The notes under the pieces were generated by a model, which had not been told where the DNA came from, searched no databases, and worked only from the letters and a program-made list of their open reading frames with translations. 64,000 nt of DNA. Origin: Psychromicrobium lacuslunae (GTDB lineage Bacteria > Actinomycetota > Actinomycetes > Actinomycetales > Micrococcaceae). Position numbers and translations under genes: made by a program. How positions within the stretch are numbered: the first letter of the stretch is position 1; every line of letters begins with the position of its first letter. Below are positions 29,744 to 48,080 of the stretch, piece by piece. The stretch lies in assembly GCF_000950575.1 (NCBI RefSeq), contig NZ_CP011005.1:682001-746000 (forward strand), given 5' to 3'.

Positions 29744-30414
29744 TCTGACTCCTTCGCCGGGGCGGTACCCAGGACGTGTTCAATTTCGGCACGCCGTGCA
29801 ACGTCGAGCATGACATGCACGGTGTCGCCCTGCTGATAGCTGGTCTCGTGATTGGGCAGAATGCCCTCACCGAAGCGGGTCAGGTAGGCCACGCGGACGC
29901 CGCTGAGCTTTTCCAGGTCTTCCAGACTGCGGCCGATCCAGCCGTCATGAAGGGAGACTTCGCTCAGAATCAGACGCCCCGAGGCTTCCCGGAAATCACC
30001 GGCGATGCTCTGCTCGGGCAGAATGCGGCGTAATACCTGATCGGCGCTCCAGCGCACCGCTGCGACCGTGGGGATCCCGAGCCGCTGGTAAATTTCGGCG
30101 CGACCCGGATCGTAGATTCTTGCCACTACATGCTCCACGTGAAAGGTCTCCCGCGCGACGCGGGTGGCCAATACATTGGAGTTATCGCCGCTGGAGACCG
30201 CCGCGAAGGCGTAAGCCTGCTCGATATCGGCTTGTTTGAGGGTCTCCCGGTCGAAGCCGATTCCGGTGACCTTACGGCCGCTGAAGTTCTTCCGCAGCCG
30301 CCTGAACGCCCGGTCATCTTGGTCGATGATGGCGACAGTGTGGCCGGAGTCTTCCAGCGTGTGAGCCAGTGTGGCGCCAACCCGGCCACAGCCCATGATC
30401 ACGTAATGTGCCAC
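29740..30414 (-). CDS. ceoB: TrkA-type potassium uptake regulatory protein CeoB
   Basis: A 224-aa paralogue of the downstream gene: TrkA-N with HYVIMGCGRVGATLAHTLE and NSNVLATRVARETF, then TrkA-C. It starts at GTG with AGAAGAGA upstream. It is divergent from the KimA-like importer at 30524, so these two subunits probably regulate that transporter. No TrkH/KtrB pore gene is nearby. Confidence 0.9.
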   Translation of the reverse strand: MAHYVIMGCGRVGATLAHTLEDSGHTVAIIDQDDRAFRRLRKNFSGRKVTGIGFDRETLKQADIEQAYAFAAVSSGDNSNVLATRVARETFHVEHVVARIYDPGRAEIYQRLGIPTVAAVRWSADQVLRRILPEQSIAGDFREASGRLILSEVSLHDGWIGRSLEDLEKLSGVRVAYLTRFGEGILPNHETSYQQGDTVHVMLDVARRAEIEHVLGTAPAKESE

Positions 30415-33903: not shown

Positions 33904-35271
33904 CTAGACCCGAAAGTAAAGATTCCGTCGTGGTTTCTGTTCCGGGTCGATCCAGGGTGGTGGCAGGAACTCTGGAATACCTGCCGTTATCTGCAGTTTC
34001 CATTCCTCTTGGTGGATCAGATGATGATGCCTGTTGCAGAGTAACGCTCCATTGCTGACCGCGCTTTCGCCGCCACGACTCCACCAATTCACATGATGAG
34101 CCTCGCACCAGCCGGCCGGGATGGTGCATTCAGGGAAGCTGCAACCACCGTCCCGGCTTAGCAGAGCCGCGCGCTGCCCGGGGCTGAATAGCCGACGTTT
34201 GCGACCGAGGTCGAGGACTTCACCGTGACCGCCCAGCAGCACCGGGATGACCTCGGCATCGCAGGCAATTCGGCGAATAGTCTGCGGCGGCACCGGGCCC
34301 GTGAACTGCTGTTTTGCCGTGCCACTGTGCTTGAGCTGGCCGAGCAACTCTTGGTAACCGATGGTGACGTGGACCTGAGGTCGCTGGCCGCCGGTCGCGG
34401 GGAGCTGGCTGGTGCTGAGTGCGGCACCGAGGGCGCTGACTAAGGCATCTAGTTCGCGTTGAGCCCGACTGCGAGAATCGATTGCCTCCGCGGATCGGTT
34501 GACGCGAGGGTTGCTGCCAGCGTTCAGCACGGTGAGTAACGTCTCGGTCTGAGACTGGTCGGCAAAAATCTTGAAGAGGGTCAGCCCCCGATGTTCACGA
34601 TCCTTGAAGATTCCTTGCCGATGCCGCAACTCGGCCTCGTCTGGAAGCGTGCCGTCTTGATCGATGACGGTATCCCAGCGCCGAATAATGGTGCGCAGGA
34701 AATCGATGTCATGATCTCGCATGGTGCGGACGAGGCTTTTCTCCATATCAGCCAGTAGCTCCGTGCGGTGCAGATTGGCGGCAGTGGCATCTTCACCCGC
34801 CCGAACAGCAGCGGTGAGGTTTGCAGAGGTTTTCACGCTTGCCTCTTCTAAGGCTTTGACCGCGACGCCAGCGGTGCGGGAATCAACGGTGCCAGTCCGC
34901 ACTAGTTCGGCAAGATTATTGAAGGGTGGATCGAGGGGAGCGGCGGTCAATGACCGGCTGGGGAGTAATTGCGCGGCAAGTTCGATCCGCCGACGCGCTT
35001 CGGCCCGGGTGATCTGTAGCCGAGCCTGCAAGAGCTCGCCTGGTTTGCTTTTGGCTTCGATATTGAGATTCTGTTCGACGGCCTGGGCAACCAAAAGCTG
35101 AGCATATTCGGTGAGGTGATGGATTTGCTCAACCATCGTCGCGGTTTTCAAAGTTTCCGCTTCGGATAATTGTGAAAGACGAAATGTTTCACCGGAGATC
35201 CAATTGCTGAGCAATTGGTGGATGCGCTCCAATTCGACCTGAGTCGTCTCGGGTATTAGTAGCGCTTCCAT
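33904..35271 (-). CDS. HNH endonuclease with DUF222 domain
   Basis: A 455-aa protein of the DUF222-HNH (13E12-repeat-like) family, which is expanded in actinobacteria and often linked to mobile DNA. DUF222 covers roughly residues 30-330. The C-terminus has an HNH nuclease site, CSFPECTIPAGWCEAHHVNW then LLCNRHHHLIHQEEW, with the Cys and His ligands intact. A perfect TATAAT (minus strand, 35278-35283) lies 6 nt before the ATG, giving a leaderless start. It marks the left edge of the accessory region next to the IS array. Confidence 0.9.
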   Translation of the reverse strand: MEALLIPETTQVELERIHQLLSNWISGETFRLSQLSEAETLKTATMVEQIHHLTEYAQLLVAQAVEQNLNIEAKSKPGELLQARLQITRAEARRRIELAAQLLPSRSLTAAPLDPPFNNLAELVRTGTVDSRTAGVAVKALEEASVKTSANLTAAVRAGEDATAANLHRTELLADMEKSLVRTMRDHDIDFLRTIIRRWDTVIDQDGTLPDEAELRHRQGIFKDREHRGLTLFKIFADQSQTETLLTVLNAGSNPRVNRSAEAIDSRSRAQRELDALVSALGAALSTSQLPATGGQRPQVHVTIGYQELLGQLKHSGTAKQQFTGPVPPQTIRRIACDAEVIPVLLGGHGEVLDLGRKRRLFSPGQRAALLSRDGGCSFPECTIPAGWCEAHHVNWWSRGGESAVSNGALLCNRHHHLIHQEEWKLQITAGIPEFLPPPWIDPEQKPRRNLYFRV

Positions 35272-35373
35272 ATGAAAATTATACTAGAAAATAGTTTCGA
35301 AGAGAAGGGTTATATCGATAAATAATAGAATATATGTATTGGATATCTGCTTTAGTGAAGTAAGCTCGACTTT

Positions 35374-36336
35374 ATGGGTTCCGCTGGTGATGACGTGGTG
35401 GCTGGTGTTGATTATCCGGCTGATTTTGGGCAGTTTCAGGACTGGTTCAGCACTGATGAGGCGTGTTTTGAGTATTTAGCTCACCTGCGGTGGCCTGATG
35501 GCTTTGCTTGCCCTCGGTGTGCTGGTCTGGACGCGTGGGCGACCGCTAGTGGTTTGTGGATGTGTCGGAATTGTGGGAGACGGACATCGGTCACGTCTGG
35601 AACATTATTTGATCGGACGAGAACACCGTTACGGACGTGGTTCGCTGCGGTTTGGTTTGTCACGGCTCAGAAGAACGGAGTCTCGGCTCTCGGATTGCAA
35701 CGCGTTCTGGGGCTGCGTTCCTACGAAACCGCGTGGGCGTGGATGCACAAACTCCGTAGGGCGATGGTCATGCCAGAGCGAGAGCTCCTTGGCGGCACAG
35801 TGGAGGTTGATGAATCTTATATCGGGGGCATTAGCCGTGGTAAAACCGGGCGATCTACCGACAAAGTGCCGGTGATGAGCGCCGCTGAGAACCTGGGTCG
35901 TAACCGTATCGGGCGGATCAGGATGGAACCAACAACGCCAGAATCGCTACCGTTGGTGAAATTCGCTCAAAGAGTCATAGTGGCTGGGTCAGTGATCAAA
36001 ACTGACGGAGCCCAAGAACTCCGGCGATTGGGAAACCTGGGGTTTCAGCACAAGTTCTACACTCAGCTAGGCTCGAGCACCCCAGCCCATATTGATCTGC
36101 CCGCGGTTCATATGGTCGCTTCGCAACTCAAACGCTGGATGCTAGGTACCATGCACTATGGAGCGTCATCCGATCATTTCGGCTACTATCTTGACGAGTT
36201 CACGTTCCGCTTCAATCGTCGCGCGGCAAACAGTCGCGGACTGCTTTTCTACCGTCTTCTCCATCAAGCCGTGCGCACAGAACCGAGACCTCTCAACGAG
36301 TTGGTTAGCTCCGAGAACAACAAATACCTGAAATAA
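35374..36336 (+). CDS. IS1595-family transposase
   Basis: An apparently intact 320-aa DDE-type transposase. It has an N-terminal zinc ribbon (FACPRCAGLDAW, WMCRNCGRRTSVTSGTLF), a first catalytic Asp in VEVDESYIGGISRGKTGRS, a second in VIKTDGAQELRRL, and the VASQLKRWMLGTMHYG segment where family members usually carry an Asn or Glu in the third catalytic position; here Gln stands in SQLKRW. Starts 40 nt inside the left end. The passenger DUF1232 gene follows by 16 nt. Confidence 0.93.
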   Translation: MGSAGDDVVAGVDYPADFGQFQDWFSTDEACFEYLAHLRWPDGFACPRCAGLDAWATASGLWMCRNCGRRTSVTSGTLFDRTRTPLRTWFAAVWFVTAQKNGVSALGLQRVLGLRSYETAWAWMHKLRRAMVMPERELLGGTVEVDESYIGGISRGKTGRSTDKVPVMSAAENLGRNRIGRIRMEPTTPESLPLVKFAQRVIVAGSVIKTDGAQELRRLGNLGFQHKFYTQLGSSTPAHIDLPAVHMVASQLKRWMLGTMHYGASSDHFGYYLDEFTFRFNRRAANSRGLLFYRLLHQAVRTEPRPLNELVSSENNKYLK

Positions 36337-36352
36337 GAAAAGGAAGATCCTG

Positions 36353-36763
36353 ATGGATTGGTGGGAGATTGTTCTAGGCATAGTGATCAGCCTCGCGGTG
36401 ATCTATCTCGTCTTACTCTTAGCCGTCTGGATTTACGCACGCCGCCACCCCGAAACCATCGGGTTCAAAGACGCGCTCAGGCTTTTACCCGACCTGCTCC
36501 GAGCTATCAGAAGAATCACAGCAGATAAAACAGTCAATACCGCAGTAAGAGTGAAGTTAACCCTCTTGCTGATCTATCTCATCTCGCCGATCGACCTGGT
36601 CCCGGACTTCCTCCCCGTGATCGGCCACGCTGATGACATCATCATCGTAGCCATTACTCTCCGCTCAGTCATTCGCTCCGCAGGCCCCGAACTGCTACGC
36701 CGCCACTGGCCCGGCACGCAACCCGGCCTCACCGTTATCGAACGACTGGCCGGCATCCACTAA
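36353..36763 (+). CDS. DUF1232 (YkvA-like) membrane protein, IS passenger gene
   Basis: A 136-aa protein: an N-terminal transmembrane helix (IVLGIVISLAVIYLVLLLAV), then the DUF1232 domain with KLTLLLIYLISPIDLVPDFLPVIGHADD, the family signature. Function unknown. It lies in the same direction as the transposase, 16 nt downstream and inside the element's inverted ends, so it is a passenger gene. Confidence 0.9.
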   Translation: MDWWEIVLGIVISLAVIYLVLLLAVWIYARRHPETIGFKDALRLLPDLLRAIRRITADKTVNTAVRVKLTLLLIYLISPIDLVPDFLPVIGHADDIIIVAITLRSVIRSAGPELLRRHWPGTQPGLTVIERLAGIH

Positions 36764-36839
36764 AAACACCAACTTCACTCAAGCAGATACCCAGTATATA
36801 TGTATTAGGTGTCTGCTTTAGTGAAGTCGTCTAGTTGTT

Positions 36840-37791
36840 ATGGGCGATGCTGAGCGTGTTGTGGTGGCTGGCGTTGATTATCCGGCGGATTTCGGTCAGT
36901 TTCAGGATTGGTTTGGCGCGGATGAGGCGTGTTTTTAATATCTAGCAGCGCTCAGGTGGCCTGCTGGTTTCCTTTGTCCGCGGTGTGCTGGCCAGGATTC
37001 ATGGGCCACCGGCAAGGGTTTGTGGATGTGCCGCAATTGCGGGAAACGGACGTCAGTCACATCAGGTACTTTGTTTGATCGGACGAGGACGCCGTAACGG
37101 ACGTGGTTCGCTGCAGTGTGGTTCGTCACCGCGCAGAAGAACGGCGTCTCAGCGCTAAGATTACAGCGAGTGTTTGGTTTGAAGTCGTACGAGACGGCGT
37201 GGGCATGGATGCATAAACTCCGTCTGGCCATGGTCATACCAGAGCGGGAGCTGCTCAGCGGCACGGTCGAGGTCGACGAGTCGCATATCGGGGGTATTAG
37301 CTGTGGTAAAACGGGACGCTCCACCGAGAAAATACCGGTAATGATCGCCACCGAAAACCTGGGAAGGAACCGGATTGGTCGGATCAGGATGGAACCCCCA
37401 CCGCCAGAATCATTACCCTTGGTGAAATTCACTCAACGAGTGGTTGAACCGGTTTCGGTGATCAAAACCGGAGCCCAGGAGACTAGCCCACCTTGGCTAC
37501 CGGCATAAGTTCAATACTCAGCTAGGCTCCAACGCCCCGGCACATGTCGATCTGCCTGCAGTGCACATGGTCGCTTCCCAACTCAAACGTTGGATGATCG
37601 GCACCATGCACTACGGAGCCTCTAGCGATCACTTCGCCTACTACCTCGACGAGTTCACCTTCTGATTCAACCGCCGCACCTCGAACAGCCGCAGGCTGCT
37701 GCTTTACCGGCTGATACACCAAACAGTACGCACCAGCCCACACCCTTTGAAGGGCCTAGTCAGCTCTGAGAACGCAAAATATCTGGACTAA
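36840..37791 (+). pseudogene. IS1595-family transposase pseudogene
   Basis: Colinear with the intact transposase at 35374-36336 but inactivated. A stop interrupts the N-terminal part (TTTTTAATAT where the intact copy reads GTTTTGAGTAT), a second stop replaces the Leu codon in the FDRTRTP-L segment (near 37096), a frameshift lies near 37490 and another stop near 37663 (TTCTGATTC). The middle (37116-37508) is still open and retains VEVDESHIGGISCGKTGRS. Confidence 0.92.
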
Positions 37792-38186
37792 GAGCGCTCT
37801 AAGTTGCTCCGTTGAATGTACTCGATGATGTTGCCATCGGGGTGACGTGCAATAAGACGTGGCCCGTTAGGTCCGGGGGTTGGCCCCTCAAGTAGCGCAC
37901 CGCCAGCCTCAGAAATCGCCGCTTCGACGAGAGAGATGTCACGAACGGCAATCGTTGCAGTGTGGGACCTTACTTCCTCATCGGCGCCCTGGATGAGGAG
38001 AAACGAACCGATCTTAGCTAACTGAATATCACGGAATCCAAAACGGTGAGGATCCCCTCCGCCAGAAAGCTGCTGATATAGAGGCAAAGCTGCATTCAAG
38101 TCCTCAACATAGACACGTGCGACGACTTCCACAATATTCGAATCAGATTCACTCACGTCAACCAATAACAGCCGACTCAGATCCAT
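37788..38186 (-). CDS. VOC-family (glyoxalase/bleomycin-resistance-like) protein, IS passenger gene
   Basis: A 132-aa single-domain VOC protein (VVARVYVEDLNAALPLYQQLSGG, IGSFLLIQGADEE, IARHPDGNIIEYIQ). The C-terminal Glu of the last motif is a typical metal ligand. The substrate is unknown; relatives include glyoxalases and drug-binding proteins. It lies antisense to the dead transposase, their ends overlap by 4 nt, and it is inside element 2, so it travels or travelled as a passenger. Its upstream region runs into the right IS end. Confidence 0.85.
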   Translation of the reverse strand: MDLSRLLLVDVSESDSNIVEVVARVYVEDLNAALPLYQQLSGGGDPHRFGFRDIQLAKIGSFLLIQGADEEVRSHTATIAVRDISLVEAAISEAGGALLEGPTPGPNGPRLIARHPDGNIIEYIQRSNLERS

Positions 38187-38340
38187 TATTCCGTGTTACA
38201 TCACTCAAGCAGATACCCAATATATAGATACTGATTATCTGCTTGAGTGAGTTAAGCTAACTGTTTTAAGTTTGCTTGGTCACGTTGGCCTGAGGGTATT
38301 TGGATTTTGAACACACCAACTTCGCTGACGACACTCGCCC

Positions 38341-39039
38341 CTAGCCTGCATCCACGCTCAGCCTGTCGCCCATGCTTACGAGGCCGGGATTGGTGACTTC
38401 TGCATACATCGCGAGGAACATTTCTCGCTCTGAGGCGAGTGGTTTGAGCCACCGCCCAGATGCTACAGCTCCGTCCTGATCGATGTCGATCATTCGGCAA
38501 CGAGGTGTTCGCTCGACTATCCGCAGACTTACGCTGCCGATTGCGACTGTTTGACCAACCCAAGATTCCTCGACGAAGGGTTGATCGGACGAGAATACTA
38601 TGTTCACTCGAAGGCGGCGCGGATCGGAATTGATACCCCAGCGATCTGCGCACCAATCTAGAGTAGCGGTACTGATCAGCGACACTGCACCCATGTCCTG
38701 ATGGGGGACTTGGGATTCAGGGGTCACCCGCATAGCGGCGCCCATCTCATGGCTGAGATCCCGATCTAGCGCGGGATCGCCAACGGTCCACGATCTACCT
38801 GTCACGTTATTGACGACTATGATGCCGGGTGCCGTGGTTTTTGCCCGGTATCTGAAAACTTGATCATGTCGGCGAAAGCGGCGCGTGTTCTTCCCAGACG
38901 CGAAGTGGCCCTCGTCGTCTTCGACGGCATACCACCGGTCCCCACTCACTCCTCGACTGTCCAACTCGACAGACTCTAGGGCCTCCCCGCCCATCGCTTT
39001 GACCGGGTAACGTCGAAGCATTACTACCTTCATGTCCAT
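38341..39039 (-). CDS. MOSC-domain protein, probable IS passenger gene
   Basis: A 232-aa protein with an N-terminal MOSC beta-barrel (MLRRYPVKAMGGEALESVELDSRGVSGDRWYAVED) and the core MOSC motif with a conserved Cys (VERTPRCRMIDIDQDG, about residue 183). MOSC domains bind molybdenum cofactor or sulfur, as in mARC and YiiM-type reductases of N-hydroxylated bases. TACAGT on the minus strand lies 6 nt before the ATG at 39039 (leaderless). It sits between an IS end and a transposase fragment, as the other passengers do. Confidence 0.87.
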   Translation of the reverse strand: MDMKVVMLRRYPVKAMGGEALESVELDSRGVSGDRWYAVEDDEGHFASGKNTRRFRRHDQVFRYRAKTTAPGIIVVNNVTGRSWTVGDPALDRDLSHEMGAAMRVTPESQVPHQDMGAVSLISTATLDWCADRWGINSDPRRLRVNIVFSSDQPFVEESWVGQTVAIGSVSLRIVERTPRCRMIDIDQDGAVASGRWLKPLASEREMFLAMYAEVTNPGLVSMGDRLSVDAG

Positions 39040-39144
39040 GTCCGAACTGTAGCCACGGCCTAAAGCAGGGGCAACTTACAGCCAGTGTCAGCACCTGAGT
39101 CAGCTCAGGAGAAGTAGTGGCCATTTTCCGAACCAACCAGTGCT

Positions 39145-39426
39145 ACCAGGGCGGACTAGTATGAACTGCCTGATGGGGTAGCCGGTAGAACAGTAGGCCC
39201 CGTCTGTTGGCATAGTGCCAAGCATCCCGCGCTCGAGCACAGAAGCAATCATCTGCACTGCCGGAAGATCAACATGGGCCAGCGTGTTCGATCCAAGGTG
39301 AGTGCAGGACTCATTCCGATAGCCAAGCTTAGCCAGGCGCCTAAGCTCCTGGGTCCCGTCATTCTTAGTTATCGACCCCGGCTCAAATACACGCTGAGCG
39401 AACTTCGCCCGCGGTAGCGACTCCGG
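39145..39426 (-). pseudogene. IS1595-family transposase remnant (C-terminal part)
   Basis: Matches the intact transposase from PESLPLVKFAQ (about residue 190). The segments AKFAQRVFEPGSI, TQELRRLAKLGYRNE and LAHVDLPAVQMIAS are readable. A deletion with frameshift follows, after which GLLFYRLPHQAVHTSP continues in another frame. The N-terminal part and the C-terminal tail are missing. Confidence 0.88.
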
Positions 39427-40036
39427 ATGCGCGGCGCCAGTCATACTCCATTTGCCTCGCGGTGGCTAAGGCGAGATCGGCGCCGCCGCATACCTCGACG
39501 AGGTGCAAGGCCAGGTCAATCCCGGCAGAGATGCCGCCGGAGGTGAAGATGTTCCCGTCGCGTACCCAGCGATGATTTGCCTCAACCTGCAGTGAGGGCC
39601 AGCGACGTTGCAGTTCGGCCTGATCTTCCCAATGGGTAGTTACTCGTTGGGTGGTTAGTATTCCGGCGGTTGCCAGCAGGAACGCGCCAGTGCAGACCGA
39701 GGCTAGCAGTGGCGTTCGATTCGCGGCATGTTGCAGCCAGTTGATCGTTTCATCGTCCCTCTCAGCGTCGTCGGTCACCCCGCCAGCCACTAATAACACG
39801 TCGAACTCTGTGCCCTCTGCAAAGGTCGAATGGCTCCGGAGTACGAGCCCGCCCCTAGCGCTGACCTCTAGTTCTTTGGCAATCATTGAAACCTTGAAGG
39901 GCTCCGACTTCCCTCTGCCGTGGCTGACTCGATTGGCGACCGAGAAAACCTCGAATGGTCCGCAGCAATCAAGTACTTCGACCTGGTCAAAGACGACAAT
40001 GCCGACGCGCTGAGCGGGGCTGACTGGGGTGCTCAT
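39383..40036 (-). CDS. DJ-1/PfpI-family protein with IS-derived 3' end
   Basis: A 217-aa class I glutamine-amidotransferase-like protein of the type fused to AraC domains in GlxA-like regulators, here without a DNA-binding domain. The nucleophile elbow Cys is in LLASVCTGAFLLATAG (about residue 116). The fold's usual end, ALATARQMEYDWRR, is followed by about 15 residues (GVATAGEVRSACI) read from the IS remnant in another frame, so the native C-terminus has been replaced. Activity is probably retained. Divergent from the MarR gene. Confidence 0.87.
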   Translation of the reverse strand: MSTPVSPAQRVGIVVFDQVEVLDCCGPFEVFSVANRVSHGRGKSEPFKVSMIAKELEVSARGGLVLRSHSTFAEGTEFDVLLVAGGVTDDAERDDETINWLQHAANRTPLLASVCTGAFLLATAGILTTQRVTTHWEDQAELQRRWPSLQVEANHRWVRDGNIFTSGGISAGIDLALHLVEVCGGADLALATARQMEYDWRRASGVATAGEVRSACI

Positions 40037-40090
40037 AATCTAAGTATTAGCCATCGGCACAAGGTCGGCACTTCGGGTAAGTTTGACAAC

Positions 40091-40113
40091 TTAATTTAAG
40101 TAGCTTAAATTAA
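40091..40113. promoter_or_regulatory. MarR-type operator overlapping the marR promoter
   Basis: Perfect 10-bp arms TTAATTTAAG and CTTAAATTAA are separated by TAG. The palindrome covers the region between a TTGACA -35 (40083-40088) and a TAAATT -10 (40106-40111, 17-nt spacing). It sits where a bound MarR dimer would block both this gene and the divergent DJ-1 gene. Autoregulation is inferred. Confidence 0.75.
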
Positions 40114-40118
40114 TGCTC

Positions 40119-40544
40119 ATGGCTGATCTTGGACATCTTTTGCACGACATTGTGATGCATATGGACAGGGATGCGGATGCGCGCCTGTCGCCGTTAGGGC
40201 TTACTCTTCGTCGTTTTGTCGCGATGACCGTGATTGCTGAACACCCGGGCATCACCTCGCGGCAGCTGGCCGCACCGCTCGGCATTAGCGAACCTGCCGT
40301 TAGTCAGGCGCTCAAGCCGCTCGCGGCAAGAGAGTTGATCTACGACGCTTCACCGCAAGGCTCAGGGCGCTCAATCAATTGGCAACTCAGTTCCGAGGGC
40401 GAACGCCTCTTTAGCGAGGCGCGCGACCGGCTGGGTAATGATTTCGACGATCTGGTCCGTCGGACCGGTCTCAACCCCGATCTGCTAGCCGGTCAGCTTC
40501 AAAGCATTCTCAACGAACTCAAGAAACCCATAGGGGAGAAGTGA
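40119..40544 (+). CDS. MarR-family transcriptional regulator
   Basis: A winged-helix dimeric repressor of about 141 aa. The recognition region is GITSRQLAAPLGISEPAVSQALKPL (about residues 45-70), with wing sequence SGRSINWQLSSEGERLF. ATG 40119 rather than ATG 40113 is preferred because it lies 7 nt after the TAAATT -10 box (leaderless) and is not inside the operator palindrome. The DUF998 gene overlaps its stop by one base. Confidence 0.87.
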   Translation: MADLGHLLHDIVMHMDRDADARLSPLGLTLRRFVAMTVIAEHPGITSRQLAAPLGISEPAVSQALKPLAARELIYDASPQGSGRSINWQLSSEGERLFSEARDRLGNDFDDLVRRTGLNPDLLAGQLQSILNELKKPIGEK

Positions 40545-41149
40545 TGGCAATCATCTGGCCGATACTGGCTAGCTTATTTTTTGCGGTGCGACTGGTGCTC
40601 ATGGTCGCCCTGCACCTGGTTCCTAGTGGCTATCATCCGATCAAACACGCTTTCAGCGATTATGCGGTGGGGCCAACCAAGAGACTCGCGGCGCTAGCCT
40701 CGTTCTCGAACACCTTGGCCTGGTGTGCGTTGGCGGTCGCTATTGCCAGCTGGCCAGGGGAGTGGTCTTATCGGGGCGCTGCTGTTTTTCAGCTCGTCGC
40801 CTTAGCGGTGCTCTCCGTTGCGGTGGTCTTCGTGCCGACCGACCTTGAAGGCGAGAAACGCTCGATCCGCGGCGTGATCCACTATGCGGTGGCCATTGCG
40901 ACCTTTGCCTTGGCCTACTCGCTGACCGGCGATACCGCGCGCTGGTCAGCCGGTTTCGCTCCCGACTGGCTGTCGGGAAGCCTCACTGCGCTGAGCTGGC
41001 TGGCCTTAGTCGGGCTGATCGCACTCTGCGCGGGCCTGGTGCTGCCGCTGCTGCGGCCTTACTTCGGCGGTCTTGAGCGGATATTTCTGTTCTCAATCAC
41101 GGTGTTTTATCTCCTGCTCAGTATCGCCCTGACGTTCTTTCGAACGTAA
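40544..41149 (+). CDS. DUF998 family membrane protein
   Basis: A 201-aa protein with six predicted transmembrane helices; function unknown. The conserved family segment GYHPIKHAFSDYAVGPTKRLAALASFSN lies after the first helix. GGGGAGA precedes ATG 40544 by 5 nt (GTG 40541 is an alternative). It is co-transcribed with the MarR repressor and is the probable target of its control. Confidence 0.85.
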   Translation: MAIIWPILASLFFAVRLVLMVALHLVPSGYHPIKHAFSDYAVGPTKRLAALASFSNTLAWCALAVAIASWPGEWSYRGAAVFQLVALAVLSVAVVFVPTDLEGEKRSIRGVIHYAVAIATFALAYSLTGDTARWSAGFAPDWLSGSLTALSWLALVGLIALCAGLVLPLLRPYFGGLERIFLFSITVFYLLLSIALTFFRT

Positions 41150-41218
41150 CTGAGGCTCAGCTCACAGCTGGTCTCAAGTTCGTCCACGAACGAGGGCAAC
41201 CGCAGATCTTCAATCTGG

Positions 41219-42649
41219 TTATTCCTGGGGTTCCGCTGCCCAAGCAAGTTCGGAGGCGCCCAGCGGTTCGCCTGCGGTGCTGAATTCAGGTCGATAGTTT
41301 GAATACCGAATTTGGCTGGGCAGGTAACTCACACTGCCCCAACTGCCAGCAATCTTCTGTAGTCCTGGCACCGGACCGGTCAAGGACGGCCGTGGCAGGT
41401 CCTGAACTAATTCAGGCTCGAAAAGTCCCAAGCTTTGGACCCACATGCTCATCCGAGCCAGATCCACCTGCACGGTGTAGCTTCCGCCGTCTCGTTCGCG
41501 TCGGCGTAACGCTTCAACTGCACCAGCGGCACCTAGCAAGGCAGCGAGATAGTCATTGAGCAGATGGGTTGGCGGTAACTGCGGTGCCTGTGAGCTCCCC
41601 TCCTCGGTTGCGATTCCGGTGGCAGCGCAGACCGGCTGATCGAATCCACGCCGTTGCGCCCAGTCCCCAGCTATGCCCCAGCTGCGGACGTTGAGCACGA
41701 TCAGCCCAGGCCGTCGCGCGATCAGCTGTTCGACGCCGAAACCTTTACCTTCAAGGCCCAGGTAGCTATTCACGAAGAGGTCAGCATCCGCCAGCGTTGC
41801 CCAGAACTTCTCGACATCGGCTGGATCGGTAAGATCGCAGAACGCCGAGCGTTTCCCCAAACCGGTATCAATGATCATCGCATTGGGATCCGGGCGAGAG
41901 GGCTTGGAAAGGTGGAGGACCTCGGCGCCGTGCTCAGCCATGATCCGGCTGGCAATTGGCCCCGCAATCACATGGGTGTTGTCGAGCACCCTCACCCCAC
42001 TCAGCGGCGCCGAAGGCTGCTGGCCGGACTGTCGCGGACCAGGGCGCGGAGCATCTGCGACCTTCTGGACCGTGACAAGCGGAGTATCCAACAGGTAGCG
42101 GCCTTGGGGGTGGTCCTGCCATTCCCGCTGGCTGCGCACCACGGCGGCCGCGCCGCCGAGTCGGGATATCTCCTCCTCTAATTCGAAGGCATCGCGTTCG
42201 CTGACGGCCTGCGCTATTGCGGAGTGAGTCGGCGCGCAATCCAGCGCCGAGCAGACCACGTCCCGAAGATGAGGGTAGCTAAGCACCAGATGGATGAAAC
42301 GATTCTCGCGGGCCCGATAGAACGCGGTGTTGCTGAAAAGCTTGGGGTCTTCGGCAAGTTCGAGCACACTGACCCCATTGACAGTGGTGAAAAATGGTGC
42401 GGAAAGTTGCCTGATAGCCTCTTCGACGCGCACCTCGATGTGCTGTGGCGCACCGCCGCGTTGCCGCCAAAACACGGCTAGTTCGGCCCCCAGCGCCGCC
42501 AGCGCTGCAGCACTTGCATCGCCTAATCGATGTACGGAAGGCGCCACCGGATCGGAACCAATAATGCGGATCTCACCCGCGGCGTCGGACTCGGTGAAAT
42601 CGAGCGCTGCCAGTACCTGACTGAGCGCGCTCACTTCGAAATTACTCAT
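41219..42649 (-). CDS. family III CoA-transferase (CaiB/BaiF-like)
   Basis: A 476-aa CoA-transferase. The C-terminal part carries the family core: LSGVRVLDNTHVIAGPIASRIMAEHGAEV, DLTDPADVEKFWATLADADLFV, and RRGFDQPVCAATGIA, whose Asp is in the position of the catalytic aspartate. The N-terminal 190 residues are a degenerate second CaiB-like half. The acyl substrate is unknown. It is divergent from an IclR-type regulator across a 108-nt gap with a palindrome, so it is probably controlled by it. Confidence 0.85.
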   Translation of the reverse strand: MSNFEVSALSQVLAALDFTESDAAGEIRIIGSDPVAPSVHRLGDASAAALAALGAELAVFWRQRGGAPQHIEVRVEEAIRQLSAPFFTTVNGVSVLELAEDPKLFSNTAFYRARENRFIHLVLSYPHLRDVVCSALDCAPTHSAIAQAVSERDAFELEEEISRLGGAAAVVRSQREWQDHPQGRYLLDTPLVTVQKVADAPRPGPRQSGQQPSAPLSGVRVLDNTHVIAGPIASRIMAEHGAEVLHLSKPSRPDPNAMIIDTGLGKRSAFCDLTDPADVEKFWATLADADLFVNSYLGLEGKGFGVEQLIARRPGLIVLNVRSWGIAGDWAQRRGFDQPVCAATGIATEEGSSQAPQLPPTHLLNDYLAALLGAAGAVEALRRRERDGGSYTVQVDLARMSMWVQSLGLFEPELVQDLPRPSLTGPVPGLQKIAGSWGSVSYLPSQIRYSNYRPEFSTAGEPLGASELAWAAEPQE

Positions 42650-42732
42650 CCTGTGCTCTCAATTCTCTCAGCATTACCAGCGGAACCTGGCTCTGCACAG
42701 TCAACCGCTGAGTCCAGCAACTCGTTCTATCG

Positions 42733-42748
42733 ATCCGAATATTCGTAT
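42733..42748. promoter_or_regulatory. palindrome in the CoA-transferase/IclR divergent promoter
   Basis: ATCCGAATATTCGTAT is symmetric except for one mismatched pair and has a perfect CGAATATTCG centre. It overlaps the TATAGT -10 box (42746-42751) of the IclR gene. Candidate autoregulatory IclR site. Confidence 0.55.
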
Positions 42749-42757
42749 AGTCAGGAA

Positions 42758-43471
42758 ATGATGAGCCAGCGCGCAATAGCCCGAGCAGACCGCATCCTCG
42801 ACCTTCTGGCACGTTCGAAGATGCCGCTGACCCTTGACCAAATCTCCTCGGCGCTCGAGCTACCGCGAAGCACAGCCTTCGACCTGCTCGGAGATTTGCT
42901 CTCCACGGGCTTCCTACAGATATCGGCACATCGATATTCCTTCGGCTCTCGTGTTTCGATGTTGCAGACCCTCGCTGAGAGCACGACAGTGCCGGCGGTG
43001 AGTCACCCAACGTTGCTGGCGATAGCCCGTGAATCGGCCTGGGCGGTGGCACTGGCGGAAATTGCTGGCCCGGTGCTGCTCTATGTGGATCAAGTGGGGG
43101 TCCGCGGACCGGGACGACTAAGCCGGATTGCCGATCTGCATTTGCCCAGACCGGTGCTGCAGACCGCAGCGGGCCGAGTAATTTTGGCGAATATGCCAGC
43201 CGAGGTTCGCCGACGCATGCTTCACGGCGCGGCCTCCGCCGAGCAGCAGAAAGAGTTCCGCGCAAAAGCCAGCACGATCCGCCGGAATGGCTATCTCTTC
43301 CACGAGACCGGTTTGATCCCCGGTCTCAGCGCTTTGGCGGTACCCGTCCCGGCCGCCTTAGACGGCGTGGTGAATTCCGCCGTCGTGCTGTTCATGCCAC
43401 GCGGCTCGACTGGCGGGAGACAGCGCGTGCGGGAAGTTGTGGCGCTAGTCCAAGACCATTTGCGGCAGTAG
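42758..43471 (+). CDS. IclR-family transcriptional regulator
   Basis: A 237-aa regulator: N-terminal winged helix (ADRILDLLARSKMPLTLDQISSALELPRSTAFDLLGDLL) and C-terminal effector domain (VALAEIAGPVLLYVDQVG, PVLQTAAGRVILA, LSALAVPVPAALDGVVNSAVVLF). An open frame extends back to 42530 inside the divergent gene, but ATG 42758, 6 nt after TATAGT, is the natural start. It probably responds to a small carboxylic acid and controls the adjacent CoA-transferase; this is inferred. Confidence 0.88.
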   Translation: MMSQRAIARADRILDLLARSKMPLTLDQISSALELPRSTAFDLLGDLLSTGFLQISAHRYSFGSRVSMLQTLAESTTVPAVSHPTLLAIARESAWAVALAEIAGPVLLYVDQVGVRGPGRLSRIADLHLPRPVLQTAAGRVILANMPAEVRRRMLHGAASAEQQKEFRAKASTIRRNGYLFHETGLIPGLSALAVPVPAALDGVVNSAVVLFMPRGSTGGRQRVREVVALVQDHLRQ

Positions 43472-43569
43472 ATGCAGCAATAAGTATCGTGCTGAAACTT
43501 CACTCGCTGGTGCTCAGCTGTGGCACGTTCTACAGCAGATTCTTAGCCTCACTTCGTAGTTTGGTGGAG

Positions 43570-44418
43570 ATGAGCAAATCAGATCTTGTTGGCCGCAGAG
43601 ATGCCCTCACCCTCATTGGTCTTAGCGGCTTGGGACTTGGTGGGGTGGGATTGGCCGGCTGCGCGGGAGTGCCAGGGAACGACGAGCCGGGGAGCTCGAC
43701 ACCTTCGGCTCGCCGAACGAGCCCTGATCCTTCCACTACGACAACCAGCACGACAGCCAGCCCGACAAAGAGTGCCACCAGTAGCCCGACCGGTCCAGCG
43801 GCAGCTGAGCCCGATTTCCAGCTACCAGCCGCTAAACGAGGCCTGGTTCCGGTGCTTACCCGGGTACCAACAAAGCAACCGGTGGTTTTTCTCAGTATTG
43901 ATGACGGCGTGACCAAGCGAGCTGAAGCGCTCGCGGCGCTGCAACACTATGGCTATCCGGTGACGATGTTTCTGACTAAGAACACCATTCAGAACGACCC
44001 GGAGTATTTTCGGGGCTTTCAGGCCTTAGGCAATCGAATCCAAAACCATACGGTGAGCCACGACACCACCATGTGGGCCAAACCCTTCGCCTATCAGTAT
44101 GCCGAAATCAAGGTCATGCAAGATTACGCACAAGAGGCTTTTGGCCGGGCTCCCACGCTTTTCCGACCTCCCGGCGGGCGCTATTCGAAGGCGACGCGAC
44201 GAGCCGCGGGCCAAGCTGGCCTTAAAGCCATTATTGACTGGGAGGCCTTGGTTAGCGGCGGTCAGATGCAGTATCAAGTCGGCGCAAAACTGCGTCCCGG
44301 AGATATTGTCTTGATGCACTTCCGGCCCGAATTCGAAGCTGACCTCAAGGCCTTTCATCAGGCTAGGCTTGAGGCCGGCCTCAAGGTGCAGCGGCTCGAT
44401 GATTTCCTCGGCGTCTGA
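43570..44418 (+). CDS. polysaccharide deacetylase family Tat-lipoprotein
   Basis: A 282-aa secreted NodB-fold enzyme. The N-terminus has a twin-arginine motif (GRRDALTLIG) and a lipobox LAGC near residue 32, predicting a Tat-exported, membrane-anchored lipoprotein, followed by a Ser/Thr/Pro linker. The catalytic domain has FLSIDDGVTKRA (catalytic Asp), NHTVSHDTTM (metal His pair), FRPPGGRYS and LMHF. It probably deacetylates a cell-wall glycan. ATG 43570 has a TAGTTT box 7 nt upstream; the longer frame from 43489 would bury the signal peptide. Confidence 0.87.
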   Translation: MSKSDLVGRRDALTLIGLSGLGLGGVGLAGCAGVPGNDEPGSSTPSARRTSPDPSTTTTSTTASPTKSATSSPTGPAAAEPDFQLPAAKRGLVPVLTRVPTKQPVVFLSIDDGVTKRAEALAALQHYGYPVTMFLTKNTIQNDPEYFRGFQALGNRIQNHTVSHDTTMWAKPFAYQYAEIKVMQDYAQEAFGRAPTLFRPPGGRYSKATRRAAGQAGLKAIIDWEALVSGGQMQYQVGAKLRPGDIVLMHFRPEFEADLKAFHQARLEAGLKVQRLDDFLGV

Positions 44419-44446
44419 GTGAAACCGATCGAGTAATCTCTTTGCT

Positions 44447-44893
44447 ATGACCCAACAAATCGCACCACTCAGCGCCGAGACCAGCCAATACCTCGATTCG
44501 ATGCGGGGGTGGATTGCCGGGCACCTCCCTGAGGAGAGTCGCGCCGAGTTCGCTTCTTCGGGCGTCAAGCTCCAAGTGTTGGCGGCAATGTTGAACAATG
44601 GCTGGGTCGGGCCGGAGAACACCTGGGAGCTTCACGCCATGGGGGCTGTCTTTGGGGATGCTCTGGCGCAGGAACTTGAGCTTGAGTGGGTACAGGTTAG
44701 CGATGAATATGGCACGGATCCGGCGGTCCGAGTGCCCGGTAGCACGGTGCTCAGCTTTCCACTCACGATCATTGCCAAAAGAGTTGAGCAACAGAGCATG
44801 GGGGATGTGTACGAGTTGTTTGGTGCCGCCATGCAGGGCATCCTCGACGCTGCTCACAGGGCAGATGCCGATACCGGGCAAGCAGGACAGTAG
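44447..44893 (+). CDS. DUF3806 family protein
   Basis: A 148-aa protein of unknown function. The family segment is WELHAMGAVFGDALAQELELEWVQVSDEYGTDPAVRVPGSTVLSFP, probably a small alpha/beta fold. TAATCT (44434-44439) lies 7 nt before the ATG (leaderless). Its stop overlaps the GTG of the NUDIX gene by one base. Confidence 0.75.
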   Translation: MTQQIAPLSAETSQYLDSMRGWIAGHLPEESRAEFASSGVKLQVLAAMLNNGWVGPENTWELHAMGAVFGDALAQELELEWVQVSDEYGTDPAVRVPGSTVLSFPLTIIAKRVEQQSMGDVYELFGAAMQGILDAAHRADADTGQAGQ

Positions 44894-45462
44894 TGCGAGA
44901 TGACGTGGAAGTCGAACCTCGCTGGCACACTACCGGACAGCAGGAGCTTTACCGTGGCTGGATGACTTTGACCGGGCATACCGTGCTGCTGCCGGATGGC
45001 AGCAGCACCAGCTACGAGGTGGATAGCAGCGTGCCGTTTGCCGTCGCTACGCTGATCTACGACGGTGAGCAGGTTTTCCTGAGCCGGCAATATCGGTATC
45101 CCATTGACCAGTGGATCTACGACCTTCCGGGAGGCGGCGGTGAACTGGGGGAGGAACCAGTGGAGGCCGCGCGTCGAGAGGTGGAGGAAGAGCTTGGCCT
45201 GATTCCCGAAAATCTGCGACCTTTACATGTGTTTTTCTCCAATCCAGCGCGGGCTGCTTGGCCAACCCATCTCTTTTTCAGTACTTCGGTCTCCCAGGGG
45301 CAAGCGCAGAATGATCCGATCGAGCAGGTTCGATTGGCCAGGATGACGCTCGAGGAGCTTGATTTACTGATTTTCCAGCGAAAGATTATTGATCCGTCAT
45401 TATTGGTGGCGCGCACCATGGCAGCGGCAACCGGATTGATGCCCGTGGTGCGGTCGTGGTGA
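44893..45462 (+). CDS. NUDIX hydrolase (ADP-ribose pyrophosphatase-like)
   Basis: A 189-aa pyrophosphohydrolase. The NUDIX box GGGGELGEEPVEAARREVEEELG is complete (about residues 82-104) and preceded by YRYPIDQWIYDLPGG, as in ADP-ribose pyrophosphatases. The true substrate is not determined. GTG 44893 overlaps the stop of the DUF3806 gene, suggesting coupled translation. Confidence 0.9.
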   Translation: MRDDVEVEPRWHTTGQQELYRGWMTLTGHTVLLPDGSSTSYEVDSSVPFAVATLIYDGEQVFLSRQYRYPIDQWIYDLPGGGGELGEEPVEAARREVEEELGLIPENLRPLHVFFSNPARAAWPTHLFFSTSVSQGQAQNDPIEQVRLARMTLEELDLLIFQRKIIDPSLLVARTMAAATGLMPVVRSW

Positions 45463-45560
45463 CTCACTCGAGTTCACTCCCACGTCTCAGTTGAAGTCAC
45501 TAAACATCCCTCCTGGGACTGATGTCGGCTCCGCCCGGCTCGCATAGAGTTATTTCCATC

Positions 45561-48080
45561 ATGAGCAGCCAAAAGACGATGCCGAGCCGCGCCGAAACGA
45601 AGAACACCGCCCGGCTCGTGGCGATCTCCGACGCCAAACGACAGCTTTCAGAATCTGGCGATGATCTGATCACCAGTGGGCTGACCGAAGCCCAAGTAGC
45701 CCGGCGTCTTTCGCTGGGGCTGGATAATGCGGTTCCGAATGAATCCAGTCGGAGTATCGCGCAGATTTTGCGGGCTAATCTGGTCACGCTTTTCAACATT
45801 GTGCTCGGTGCTTGCTTCATTGTGGTGCTGCTGGTCGGCGAATGGAAAGACGCGCTGTTCGGCGTCATTGTGATTGCCAATGCGGCGATCGGGGTGATTC
45901 AGGAATATCGCGCCAAGCGCACCCTAGACCGCTTGGCGGTGCTGAACGCGCCGCACGCCCGGGTGCTCCGGCAGGGCACGGACGGCCAGAGCAGCCCCAG
46001 GGAAGTCGCCGTCGCTGAGGTGGTCTATCAGGACGTGCTGGTGCTACGCACCGGCGATCAAATTCCGGCCGATGCCGAAGTGCTCAGCGTTGAGGGCTTG
46101 GAAGTCGACGAATCACTGCTGACCGGTGAATCCGACCCGATCGATAAGCAGCCCGGCGACGAGGTGCTCTCCGGCTCGGCGGTGGTTTCCGGCTCCGGCA
46201 CAGCCCGGGTGCAACGCATTGGCGTAGAATCTTTCGCCTCGAAGCTGACCGCCGAGGCTAAGCGTTTCTCGATGGTCAATTCCGAGATTCGGAACTCTAT
46301 TAATAAGATCGTGCTCTACATCACCTGGGCGCTCGTTCCGTTAGTGCTGCTGGTGATCAACGGTCAGATGCAAGCCAAGGGTGGCTGGGCGCACGCCTTT
46401 GAAAGCGGGGCCTGGAAAGAAGCAGTTGTCTCGGCGGTCGCCTCCATTGTGGCGATGATCCCGGAAGGTCTGGTATTGCTGACCAGCATTTCCTTTGGCC
46501 TGGCCGCCGTCACGCTGGCCCGCCGCCAAGTGCTGGTGCAAGAGCTCCCGGCAGTCGAAGGCCTAGCTAGGGTGGACATTGTCTGCCTGGACAAGACCGG
46601 CACGCTCACCGAGGGCGAGATTATTTTTGATGCCGAGTATCTGCTCAACGAGCAGGCCGGCTGGCGGCAGGTCCTCGGCTGGATCGGTGCTGACGAGAAC
46701 GCCAACGCCACCGCCGCCTGCTTGCGCCCGCAATACACCGCTGCCACCGTGCAACCGGACCTCAAGGTGCCATTCAATAGTGCGCGCAAATGGAGCGCCT
46801 TAAGTTTTGCCGCGACCGAAGGCGCCGAGCAGCCCCAAGGGAGCTGGGTTTTCGGCGCGCCGGAGATGGTGCTGAACCACGACGTCGAAAGCCACCAAGC
46901 CACGCTAGCCCAAGCGGGTGAACTGGCAGAGCAGGGCCTGCGAGCCCTGATTCTGGCGCACAGTGCACAGCCCCTAAGCGCTGAAGAATTACCCGCAGAC
47001 CTGCAAGCGGTAGCGATTCTGACCTTCCGTGAGAAGGTCCGCCCTGATGCTTCCGAAACGCTTGCCTACTTCCGCGAGCAAGAGGTTAGCCTTCGGGTGA
47101 TCTCCGGCGACAACCCACGCACCGTGGCAGCGGTGGCCCGCGAAGTCGGCTTCGAGAACGTCGGCCAAGGCTACGATGCCCGGCAACTACCGGAGGACAT
47201 CGACGAGCTGGGCGAGGTACTCGAACGGGAGCAAGTGCTGGGTCGGGTCACCCCGGAACAGAAGAAAGCGATTGTGCTCGCACTGCAAAAACGCGGTCAC
47301 GTGGTGGCGATGACCGGTGACGGGGTGAACGACGCGCTCGCCTTGAAGAATGCTGATATTGGTATTGCGATGGGCTCAGGTGCTGCAGCGACCAAGGCGG
47401 TGGCCAGACTGGTATTGCTCGATGGGCAGTTCTCCCGGATGCCTGGCGTGGTGGCCGAAGGCCGTCGGGTGATTGCCAACGTGGAGCGGGTGGCTAATCT
47501 GTTCCTGACCAAGACTGCGTACGCGATCATCATCTCGCTGTTCATTGGCATAGTGCTCTGGCAATACCCCTTCCTTCCTCGCCAGCTATCGATCATTTCT
47601 TCGCTCACCATTGGTATTCCGGCCTTCTTCCTCGCGCTTTTGCCGAATAAGCGGCGTTACCAGCCCGGTTTCCTGCGCCGAGTGCTGCTTTTCTCGGTAC
47701 CCACCGGAGCGATTATCGCCGCCTGTATTGTGGCGATTTACAGCTTCTCCCGGGCGTTCCCAGACCCCGCGCTGAGCGCAGATGCGCAGATCGAGGCAAG
47801 CCGTACGGCCACTACGGCAGCGGTATTGCTGATCGCGCTTTGGGTGCTCGGCACCTTGGCCCGGCCATTCGACCGTTGGCGGGCTGCGGTGGTCGCGGCC
47901 ATGCTCCTCGGTTTGGTGTTGGTGCTCGCGGTGCCTTTTGCCCGCGACTTCTTCGCGCTACAGGTGCCGACTGGCACCTTACTGGCGGGTACCATTGGAA
48001 TAGTTGTTCTAGGCTGTGCGGCGGTTGAAATTCTCTACCGAATCCTCAAACGCCGTGGTGCCGTCTCGGAAAGGGAGTAG
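45561..48080 (+). CDS. cation-translocating P-type ATPase (CtpE-like)
   Basis: An ATP-driven cation pump of the P-type family, 839 aa. It has N-terminal LTEAQVARRLSLGLDN, the actuator loop LLTGESDPI (about residue 184), transmembrane PEGLVLLTSISFGL, the phosphorylated Asp in DKTGTLTEGE (about 343), hinge MTGDGVNDALALKNADIGIAMG (about 584) and six C-terminal helices. The pattern is closest to CtpE, the Ca2+ transporter of mycobacteria; the ion is inferred. ATG 45561 is preferred over 45522 because TAGAGT (45545-45550) lies 10 nt upstream. Confidence 0.9.
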   Translation: MSSQKTMPSRAETKNTARLVAISDAKRQLSESGDDLITSGLTEAQVARRLSLGLDNAVPNESSRSIAQILRANLVTLFNIVLGACFIVVLLVGEWKDALFGVIVIANAAIGVIQEYRAKRTLDRLAVLNAPHARVLRQGTDGQSSPREVAVAEVVYQDVLVLRTGDQIPADAEVLSVEGLEVDESLLTGESDPIDKQPGDEVLSGSAVVSGSGTARVQRIGVESFASKLTAEAKRFSMVNSEIRNSINKIVLYITWALVPLVLLVINGQMQAKGGWAHAFESGAWKEAVVSAVASIVAMIPEGLVLLTSISFGLAAVTLARRQVLVQELPAVEGLARVDIVCLDKTGTLTEGEIIFDAEYLLNEQAGWRQVLGWIGADENANATAACLRPQYTAATVQPDLKVPFNSARKWSALSFAATEGAEQPQGSWVFGAPEMVLNHDVESHQATLAQAGELAEQGLRALILAHSAQPLSAEELPADLQAVAILTFREKVRPDASETLAYFREQEVSLRVISGDNPRTVAAVAREVGFENVGQGYDARQLPEDIDELGEVLEREQVLGRVTPEQKKAIVLALQKRGHVVAMTGDGVNDALALKNADIGIAMGSGAAATKAVARLVLLDGQFSRMPGVVAEGRRVIANVERVANLFLTKTAYAIIISLFIGIVLWQYPFLPRQLSIISSLTIGIPAFFLALLPNKRRYQPGFLRRVLLFSVPTGAIIAACIVAIYSFSRAFPDPALSADAQIEASRTATTAAVLLIALWVLGTLARPFDRWRAAVVAAMLLGLVLVLAVPFARDFFALQVPTGTLLAGTIGIVVLGCAAVEILYRILKRRGAVSERE

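Follow-up and report, generated by a model that had tools for sequence, protein, structure and literature searches.

The window analysed here is a 64,000-nucleotide stretch of the Psychromicrobium lacuslunae genome (contig 1, positions 682001–746000 of a 3.6-Mb genome), and it contains an array of three end-to-end units of the insertion sequence (IS) family IS1595 at 35338 to approximately 39432. Two units are complete and the third is truncated. Unit 1 (35338–36795) has both of its ends, a left inverted repeat at 35338–35361 on the forward strand and a right inverted repeat at 36772–36795 on the reverse strand. Between them, an intact transposase of 320 amino acids (35374–36336, forward strand) is followed, after a gap of 16 bp, by a gene for a 136-amino-acid DUF1232 protein (36353–36763, forward strand; Pfam, 1.7e-12). 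Unit 2 (36804–38221) also retains both ends (36804–36827, forward strand; 38198–38221, reverse strand). It holds a dead transposase carrying stops and a frameshift (36840–37791, forward strand), sharing 76% DNA identity with its unit 1 counterpart across 1005 aligned bases. An antisense gene, overlapping the end of the dead frame, encodes a VOC/glyoxalase-like protein of 132 amino acids (37788–38186, reverse strand). Support for the VOC label is weak, the Pfam Glyoxalase match having an E of 0.009 and 16.8 bits, under the cut-off of 20.6. Unit 3 begins at 38230 and is inverted, so that the end on the cargo side of its transposase, equivalent to the right end of the other units, comes first (38230–38253, forward strand; end score 19.9). 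A gene for a 232-amino-acid protein with MOSC and MOSC_N domains follows (38341–39039, reverse strand; Pfam, 3.8e-16 and 1.9e-8), and this assignment is sound. Next is a transposase remnant (39100–39432, reverse strand) with 54% identity to transposase residues 187–276 and further residues recognisable by eye in a second frame. The part before approximately residue 187 and the outer end have been lost, and the remnant runs into the 3′ end of a DJ-1-like gene, to which it is fused. No end-like site scoring at least 6 was found within 39001–45600. Only unit 1 could still make transposase, and units 2 and 3 probably decayed in place.

The unit 1 transposase matched the Pfam DDE_Tnp_IS1595 domain (1.2e-22), the NCBIfam IS1595 model (5.1e-52) and, at its N terminus, the Pfam Zn_ribbon_IS1595 domain (7.5e-13). 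An N-terminal zinc ribbon is a feature of all IS1595 groups except IS1016. The residues D, D, H and K were conserved in 10 of 10 aligned transposases; a catalytic D-D-H..K is the rule for the ISSod11-like subgroup, to which the element may belong. The predicted protein, with its DDE domain and zinc ribbon, and the 8-bp target duplication described below place the element in the IS1595 family on the features tested. Seven proteins from the array and its neighbour were scanned against Pfam and NCBIfam and none matched an integrase family, although an attC search was not made. In the rest of the genome, no further copy of the element, no further transposase domain of this type and no end with two or fewer mismatches was found. 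A single isolated end-like match, at up to three mismatches, lies at window position 30225.

The inverted ends read ATTG-GGTATCTGCTT...TGAAGT and variants thereof, and the units are separated by single 8-bp target copies. Unit 1 is flanked on both sides by ATATATGT (35330–35337 and 36796–36803; 8/8 match), as expected of the 8-bp duplication made by IS1595 elements, and its right copy is the only one between units 1 and 2. Unit 2 is thus flanked by ATATATGT on its left and by ATATAGAT on its right (38222–38229; 6/8 match), the latter also being the sole spacer before unit 3. Across the window and its relatives, identical 8-bp copies flanked 28 of 38 units, compared with 1.6% for re-paired copies of different loci. 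A passenger inside the ends, the mark of a transporter IS, is present in complete form in units 1 and 2 and with one end only in unit 3. Ends without a transposase, which characterise a mobile insertion cassette, were not seen in the window, where all three units hold a transposase or its remains. An earlier note, made from the sequence alone, had described three IS1595-type units with different passengers lying end to end; the ends, the target copies and the Pfam matches bear this out. The shared ends it proposed hold for units 1 and 2, each with both, and only in part for unit 3, of which a single end was seen. With that qualification, its reading of the genes as passengers of such elements stands.

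A scan of named genomes gave 28 loci with related elements, from which seven without two ends were dropped (L019, L029, L032, L033, L036, L037 and L038; L numbers denote loci and G numbers genomes). Later loci with one clean end, a degenerate pair or a contig edge were also dropped (L101, L104–L109, L111 and L112), as were L120 and L121, which are the same as L012 and L028. L113, which shows a one-base shift, is counted among the 38 units and not among the final 30 loci. Many relatives carry cargo between the transposase and one end, and some are cargo-less (e.g., L015 and L023). Seven of the 38 units lacked a transposase, as called with one tblastn query at E 1e-3 (L012 unit 2, L017 unit 2, L028 unit 1, L098, L102 A and B, and L103); all seven are in relatives, and five of them are joined to other units.

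Stacks with a single target copy per junction were found at 6 of the 30 loci (the window, L012, L017, L028, L099 and L102), and all of them reuse an 8-bp copy next to an end. The proposal that this is a cassette-collecting locus is therefore upheld in the sense that such loci can gather units, though stacks are rare overall. A second three-unit stack, L102, has the copies ACACAGAT, ACACATAT and ACACATAT, and ACACATAT once more at a far end that is shifted by one base. The outer copies of L012 are identical (ACTGAGTT) and its inner copy differs (ACACATGT), which makes joint movement of the two units the likeliest history. L017 has an inner copy that is the reverse complement of its outer copy, as expected from inversion between the outer ends. 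L099 (3215–8331, in G106) contains three identical 1686-bp units with 0 differences, two of which share one target copy; the first unit lies 51 bp away from the other two, at a different target.

Empty target sites were reconstructed and compared with the LexA (SOS) box. An alignment of 22 sites gave T[C/A]GAACA[T/C][A/G]TGTTC[G/T]A, with GAACNNNNGTTC present in 11 of them. G at position 3 and A at position 5 were found in 22/22 sites, and C at position 14 in 21/22; the exception is the window row, where the right flank is the end of unit 2. The SOS box of M. tuberculosis is TCGAAC(N)4GTTCGA, extended to a motif ending TCGAAMRYWTGTTCGA (PMC4181829), and that of Streptomyces is tCGAAC-N4-GNNCGa (PMC9380542). 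Scored against the M. tuberculosis-derived TCGAAMRYWTGTTCGA, 23 of 29 empty sites reached at least 12/16, with a mean of 13.2, whereas 0.074% of random 16-mers from the same loci did so (mean, 5.1). Loss of the right flank leaves the window without a 16-position score; the six sites below 12 were retained in the counts. Among six proteobacterial plasmid relatives (43%–49% identity) that were examined, the four with clean target copies scored 2–7/16.

A DUF222-HNH (13E12-type) gene borders the insertion at 17 of the 30 loci, window included. All 17 read away from the insertion, 9 on the left and 8 on the right, a near-even split that a palindromic target predicts, and in 15 of the 17 the open frame starts within 65 nt of the insertion. 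No DUF222-HNH match within 4 kb reads toward the insertion at any of the 30 loci. Such a gene stands beside 5 of 6 stacks versus 12 of 24 other loci. A profile built from 10 of the 17 proteins found the rest, so those ten match by construction. In a Pfam scan covering all of the 17 but L025, DUF222 was matched at the window, L014, L018, L026, L027, L028, L034 and L102, and HNH at L031 (just below the cut-off) and L100; neither family was found for L012, L015, L016, L021, L030 or L099. L015, L016, L021 and L030 are four insertions in one Humibacillus genome, whose neighbours show an HNH-like motif by eye only. In the window, the endonuclease-like gene of this type lies at 33904–35271 on the reverse strand, with the array on its promoter side and its start codon 59 nt from the target copy (Pfam DUF222, 5.3e-29; HNH_2, 0.0042, and HNH, 0.017, both under cut-off). 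In M. tuberculosis, HNH genes of the 13E12 family are discussed together with the LexA regulon in one report (PMC4181829), and another lists five putative HNH endonucleases among RecA-dependent genes after mitomycin C (PMC8151990).

We consider it likely that the window array is a three-unit stack of IS1595-family transporter transposons, built by repeated insertion at an 8-bp target copy, and that the actinobacterial clade to which it belongs mostly inserts into LexA-box sequences. These data suggest a transposon family that favours a particular kind of site, at which gene cassettes can accumulate. The transposase would recognise the LexA-box palindrome, either directly or via bound LexA; in the window, related but different elements would have inserted repeatedly at the 8-bp target copy beside a resident element, on the promoter side of a DUF222-HNH gene. 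If this is correct, it would account for the way in which a small transposon reaches a site where insertion does little harm. It would also make two questions testable: how the transposase chooses regulatory palindromes, and what role the 13E12-type HNH genes play.

Several observations weigh against this interpretation. The end pattern occurred in only 13 of 395 family genomes (a reversed control occurred in none), and an exact-junction pattern (AAGCAGATA, 6–36 nt, TATCTGCTT) matched the window only, 1 of 396 genomes of the order, although that pattern is blind to degenerate ends such as those in G042, which is part of the sample. Imperfect target copies flank window unit 2, L022, L025, L028 unit 1, L102 A and L113, the last through its one-base shift. 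No DUF222 gene was seen at 13 of the 30 loci. The six sites that scored 9–11 all belong to the ATTG/ATTA/GTTG-end subgroup, which is the window's own, and the surviving 12-nt left part of the window site, TAGAATATATGT, agrees at 10 of 12 motif positions, a weak box whose right flank is lost. An intact box-like sequence scoring 13/16 of TCGAAMRYWTGTTCGA lies at 35285–35300, between the HNH gene and the array and 29 bp closer to the gene, so the array lies next to this box without occupying it. Upstream of the same gene in congeners, G002 and G003 have a 14/16 box without an element, and the best score in G004 is 11. On its sequence, the window array is a weak example of the LexA-box rule, as is its subgroup. 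Chance reuse of a preferred site could also account for part of the stacking, and no firm number can be put on the excess of stacks because real targets are often imperfect while perfect cores number 27–130 per genome in the eight genomes counted.

Restoration of the box at the element ends is likewise limited. In the TCTG-end subgroup, GAACNNNNGTTC is present at both junctions, but in only 8 of 27 loci (L014–L018, L030, L031 and L034), and it is present at one junction in two more (L021 and L023). Five of the six stacks, the window included, fall in the subgroup without box restoration, and the core is kept at one of eight middle junctions (L017), the other seven scoring 4–9. Restored LexA boxes were considered as a general cause of stacking and rejected: they do not explain five of the six stacks because the subgroup of those stacks restores no box and their middle junctions score 4–9.

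The strongest alternative is that these elements prefer any short palindrome or structured promoter region, with the LexA likeness arising from the sampling of DUF222 promoters. The targets are palindromic, the ATTG/ATTA-end subgroup often sits on weak boxes and the low-scoring middle junctions of five stacks would fit such a preference. We nevertheless regard it as unlikely, since specific bases are conserved over the 22 sites (positions 3, 5 and 14) and sites without a DUF222 neighbour match too, with 10 of 13 reaching 12/16.

A second alternative is that the stack was built by homologous recombination, or by tandem duplication of a single element, in place of repeated insertion, and that the cargo was replaced afterwards. 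The identical units of G106, two of them on one target copy, could also arise by duplication, and the reverse-complemented middle copy of L017 is consistent with an inversion between outer ends, which has been reported for IS ends (PMC3004938). For the window, this route is improbable: the DNA of units 1 and 2 diverges by approximately 24% and their cargo is unrelated, unit 3 lies in inverted orientation and is more divergent still, and each pair of neighbours is set apart by one target-sized spacer.

The locus was also compared with six congener stretches, in all of which the genes flanking the window block (a TrmA-like gene and the gene at 45522) are only 0.05–1.9 kb apart, with an HNH gene between them in three. 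No transposase, DUF1232, VOC, MOSC, DJ-1, MarR or following gene was found between the flanking genes in any of the six (E 1e-8). The block missing from congeners spans 35.3 to 45.5 kb and is larger than the array; its remainder, at 39383–45500, encodes DJ-1, MarR, a membrane protein and a CoA-transferase-like protein, among others. The earlier note had allowed that VOC and MOSC might prove fixed here in relatives without any IS, and this fails because the six congeners lack the block. The VOC-like protein had no match in 119 other family genomes (E ≤ 1e-15) and the MOSC protein matched in one of them (E 1e-50), whereas DUF1232 proteins are common (21/119). Seven of those DUF1232 loci and the one MOSC relative had no ends, at three or fewer mismatches, within the 3.4–3.7 kb examined. 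It is thus very improbable that VOC and MOSC are normal residents of this chromosomal region that became enclosed by IS copies. In favour of that view, MOSC genes are an ordinary class, the one here has an end on a single side, and the block absent from congeners exceeds the array. Against it, both genes are missing from the locus in all six congener stretches and are rare in the family, VOC lies inside two matching ends, and MOSC sits between a remnant and an end, like cargo in complete relatives.

Cargo changes from locus to locus. The relatives carry a methyltransferase, an LD-carboxypeptidase-like protein, an alpha/beta hydrolase, a rhodanese, Imm8, DUF2199 and S1-domain proteins, lipoproteins and unknowns. 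Among 25 cargo proteins compared, a set that includes picks from L029, L032 and L101, each with one clean end only, there was a single related pair, L011 and L032 (blastp, E 1e-3). Stress or detoxification as a common cargo theme, which the earlier note had thought possible, was dropped given this diversity and is unsupported as a class.

A further reading is more tentative, and we think it somewhat more probably wrong than right: the clade would home to LexA operators, particularly the ones that belong to 13E12-type DUF222-HNH genes, one subgroup would restore the operator at its ends and so place its transposase under SOS control, and units with different cargo would pile up as a transposase-based, SOS-timed counterpart of the integron. 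Where GAACNNNNGTTC is restored at the junctions of TCTG-end elements, the operator of the host gene may be preserved, and a box may come to lie tens of bases in front of the transposase start; the distance from the element end to the first start codon is 35 nt in L014 and L018. SOS control of the transposase would follow only if LexA binds the restored box, and for these elements such control is predicted from sequence. The middle junctions oppose box-driven stacking and so make this SOS-timed reading, and slightly also the repeated-insertion reading, less probable. If true, such a clade, landing in SOS operators next to genes for HNH endonucleases, would link the capture of genes to DNA damage.

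Passenger-carrying IS1595 members are known (PMC5704250, PMC8101967); what is new here is the match of targets to LexA boxes, often beside DUF222-HNH genes. A full-text literature search, with most subscription papers outside its reach, returned no paper in which LexA or SOS boxes are the target of an IS1595 element. The closest known systems are the IS1595 transporter IS (tIS), such as tISCpe8 and MTnSag1, which likewise have an IS1595 transposase, passengers inside the ends and 8-bp target copies (PMC8101967, PMC5704250). Unlike the tIS, the elements described here form stacks with one target copy per junction, include transposase-less units, change cargo between loci and have targets that match LexA boxes. 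Mobile insertion cassettes (MIC), such as those with Tn3-family ends in Xanthomonas, carry cargo between ends without a transposase (PMC6304161), as do the seven transposase-less units; the ends here are instead of IS1595 type, and most of those units are joined to others. The casposon inserts into the target copy of a resident element to give a tandem, as shown in vivo, and similar tandems are said to be reported for many IS elements (PMC10359463); its integrase and target are unrelated to those here. The likeness to integrons is one of outline, in that gene cassettes are gathered at one site and integron integrase promoters carry a LexA site (PMC8876359), whereas the present elements use a transposase with inverted ends and 8-bp target copies, and their SOS control would be an inferred property.

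Larger and plasmid-borne relatives were also encountered. A 39.6-kb element with the same IS1595-type ends is present in two genera (L114–L116 in G335 and L117–L119 in G175). The two versions are 98% identical over 39,729 bp, and each location has perfect 8-bp target copies, of a different sequence in each. The element encodes metal-transport ATPases, a multicopper oxidase, sugar enzymes and a universal stress protein; its ends hold transposase fragments only. When a 17.2-kb piece of it was compared with plasmid records, none covered 80% of that piece. The element can be compared with the IS1595-family compound transposon Tn7560 (ISApl4), in which IS1595-type elements surround a larger cargo; Tn7560 differs in belonging to the IS1016 subgroup and having directly oriented copies, and the consulted part of its report describes no stack or LexA target (PMC12561309). 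In viral contigs, the junction pattern matched 93 stretches, which were taken as chance palindromes from the spread of their spacings, the stretches themselves not being inspected; relatives of the transposase were found neither in viral contigs nor, at E 1e-30, in phage records. The Sinomonas atrocyanea plasmid pSA01, typed as mobilizable, carries a unit with an Imm8 immunity-type cargo (L110 / L218, 2011–3528), the transposase of which has no entry in the gene table shown.

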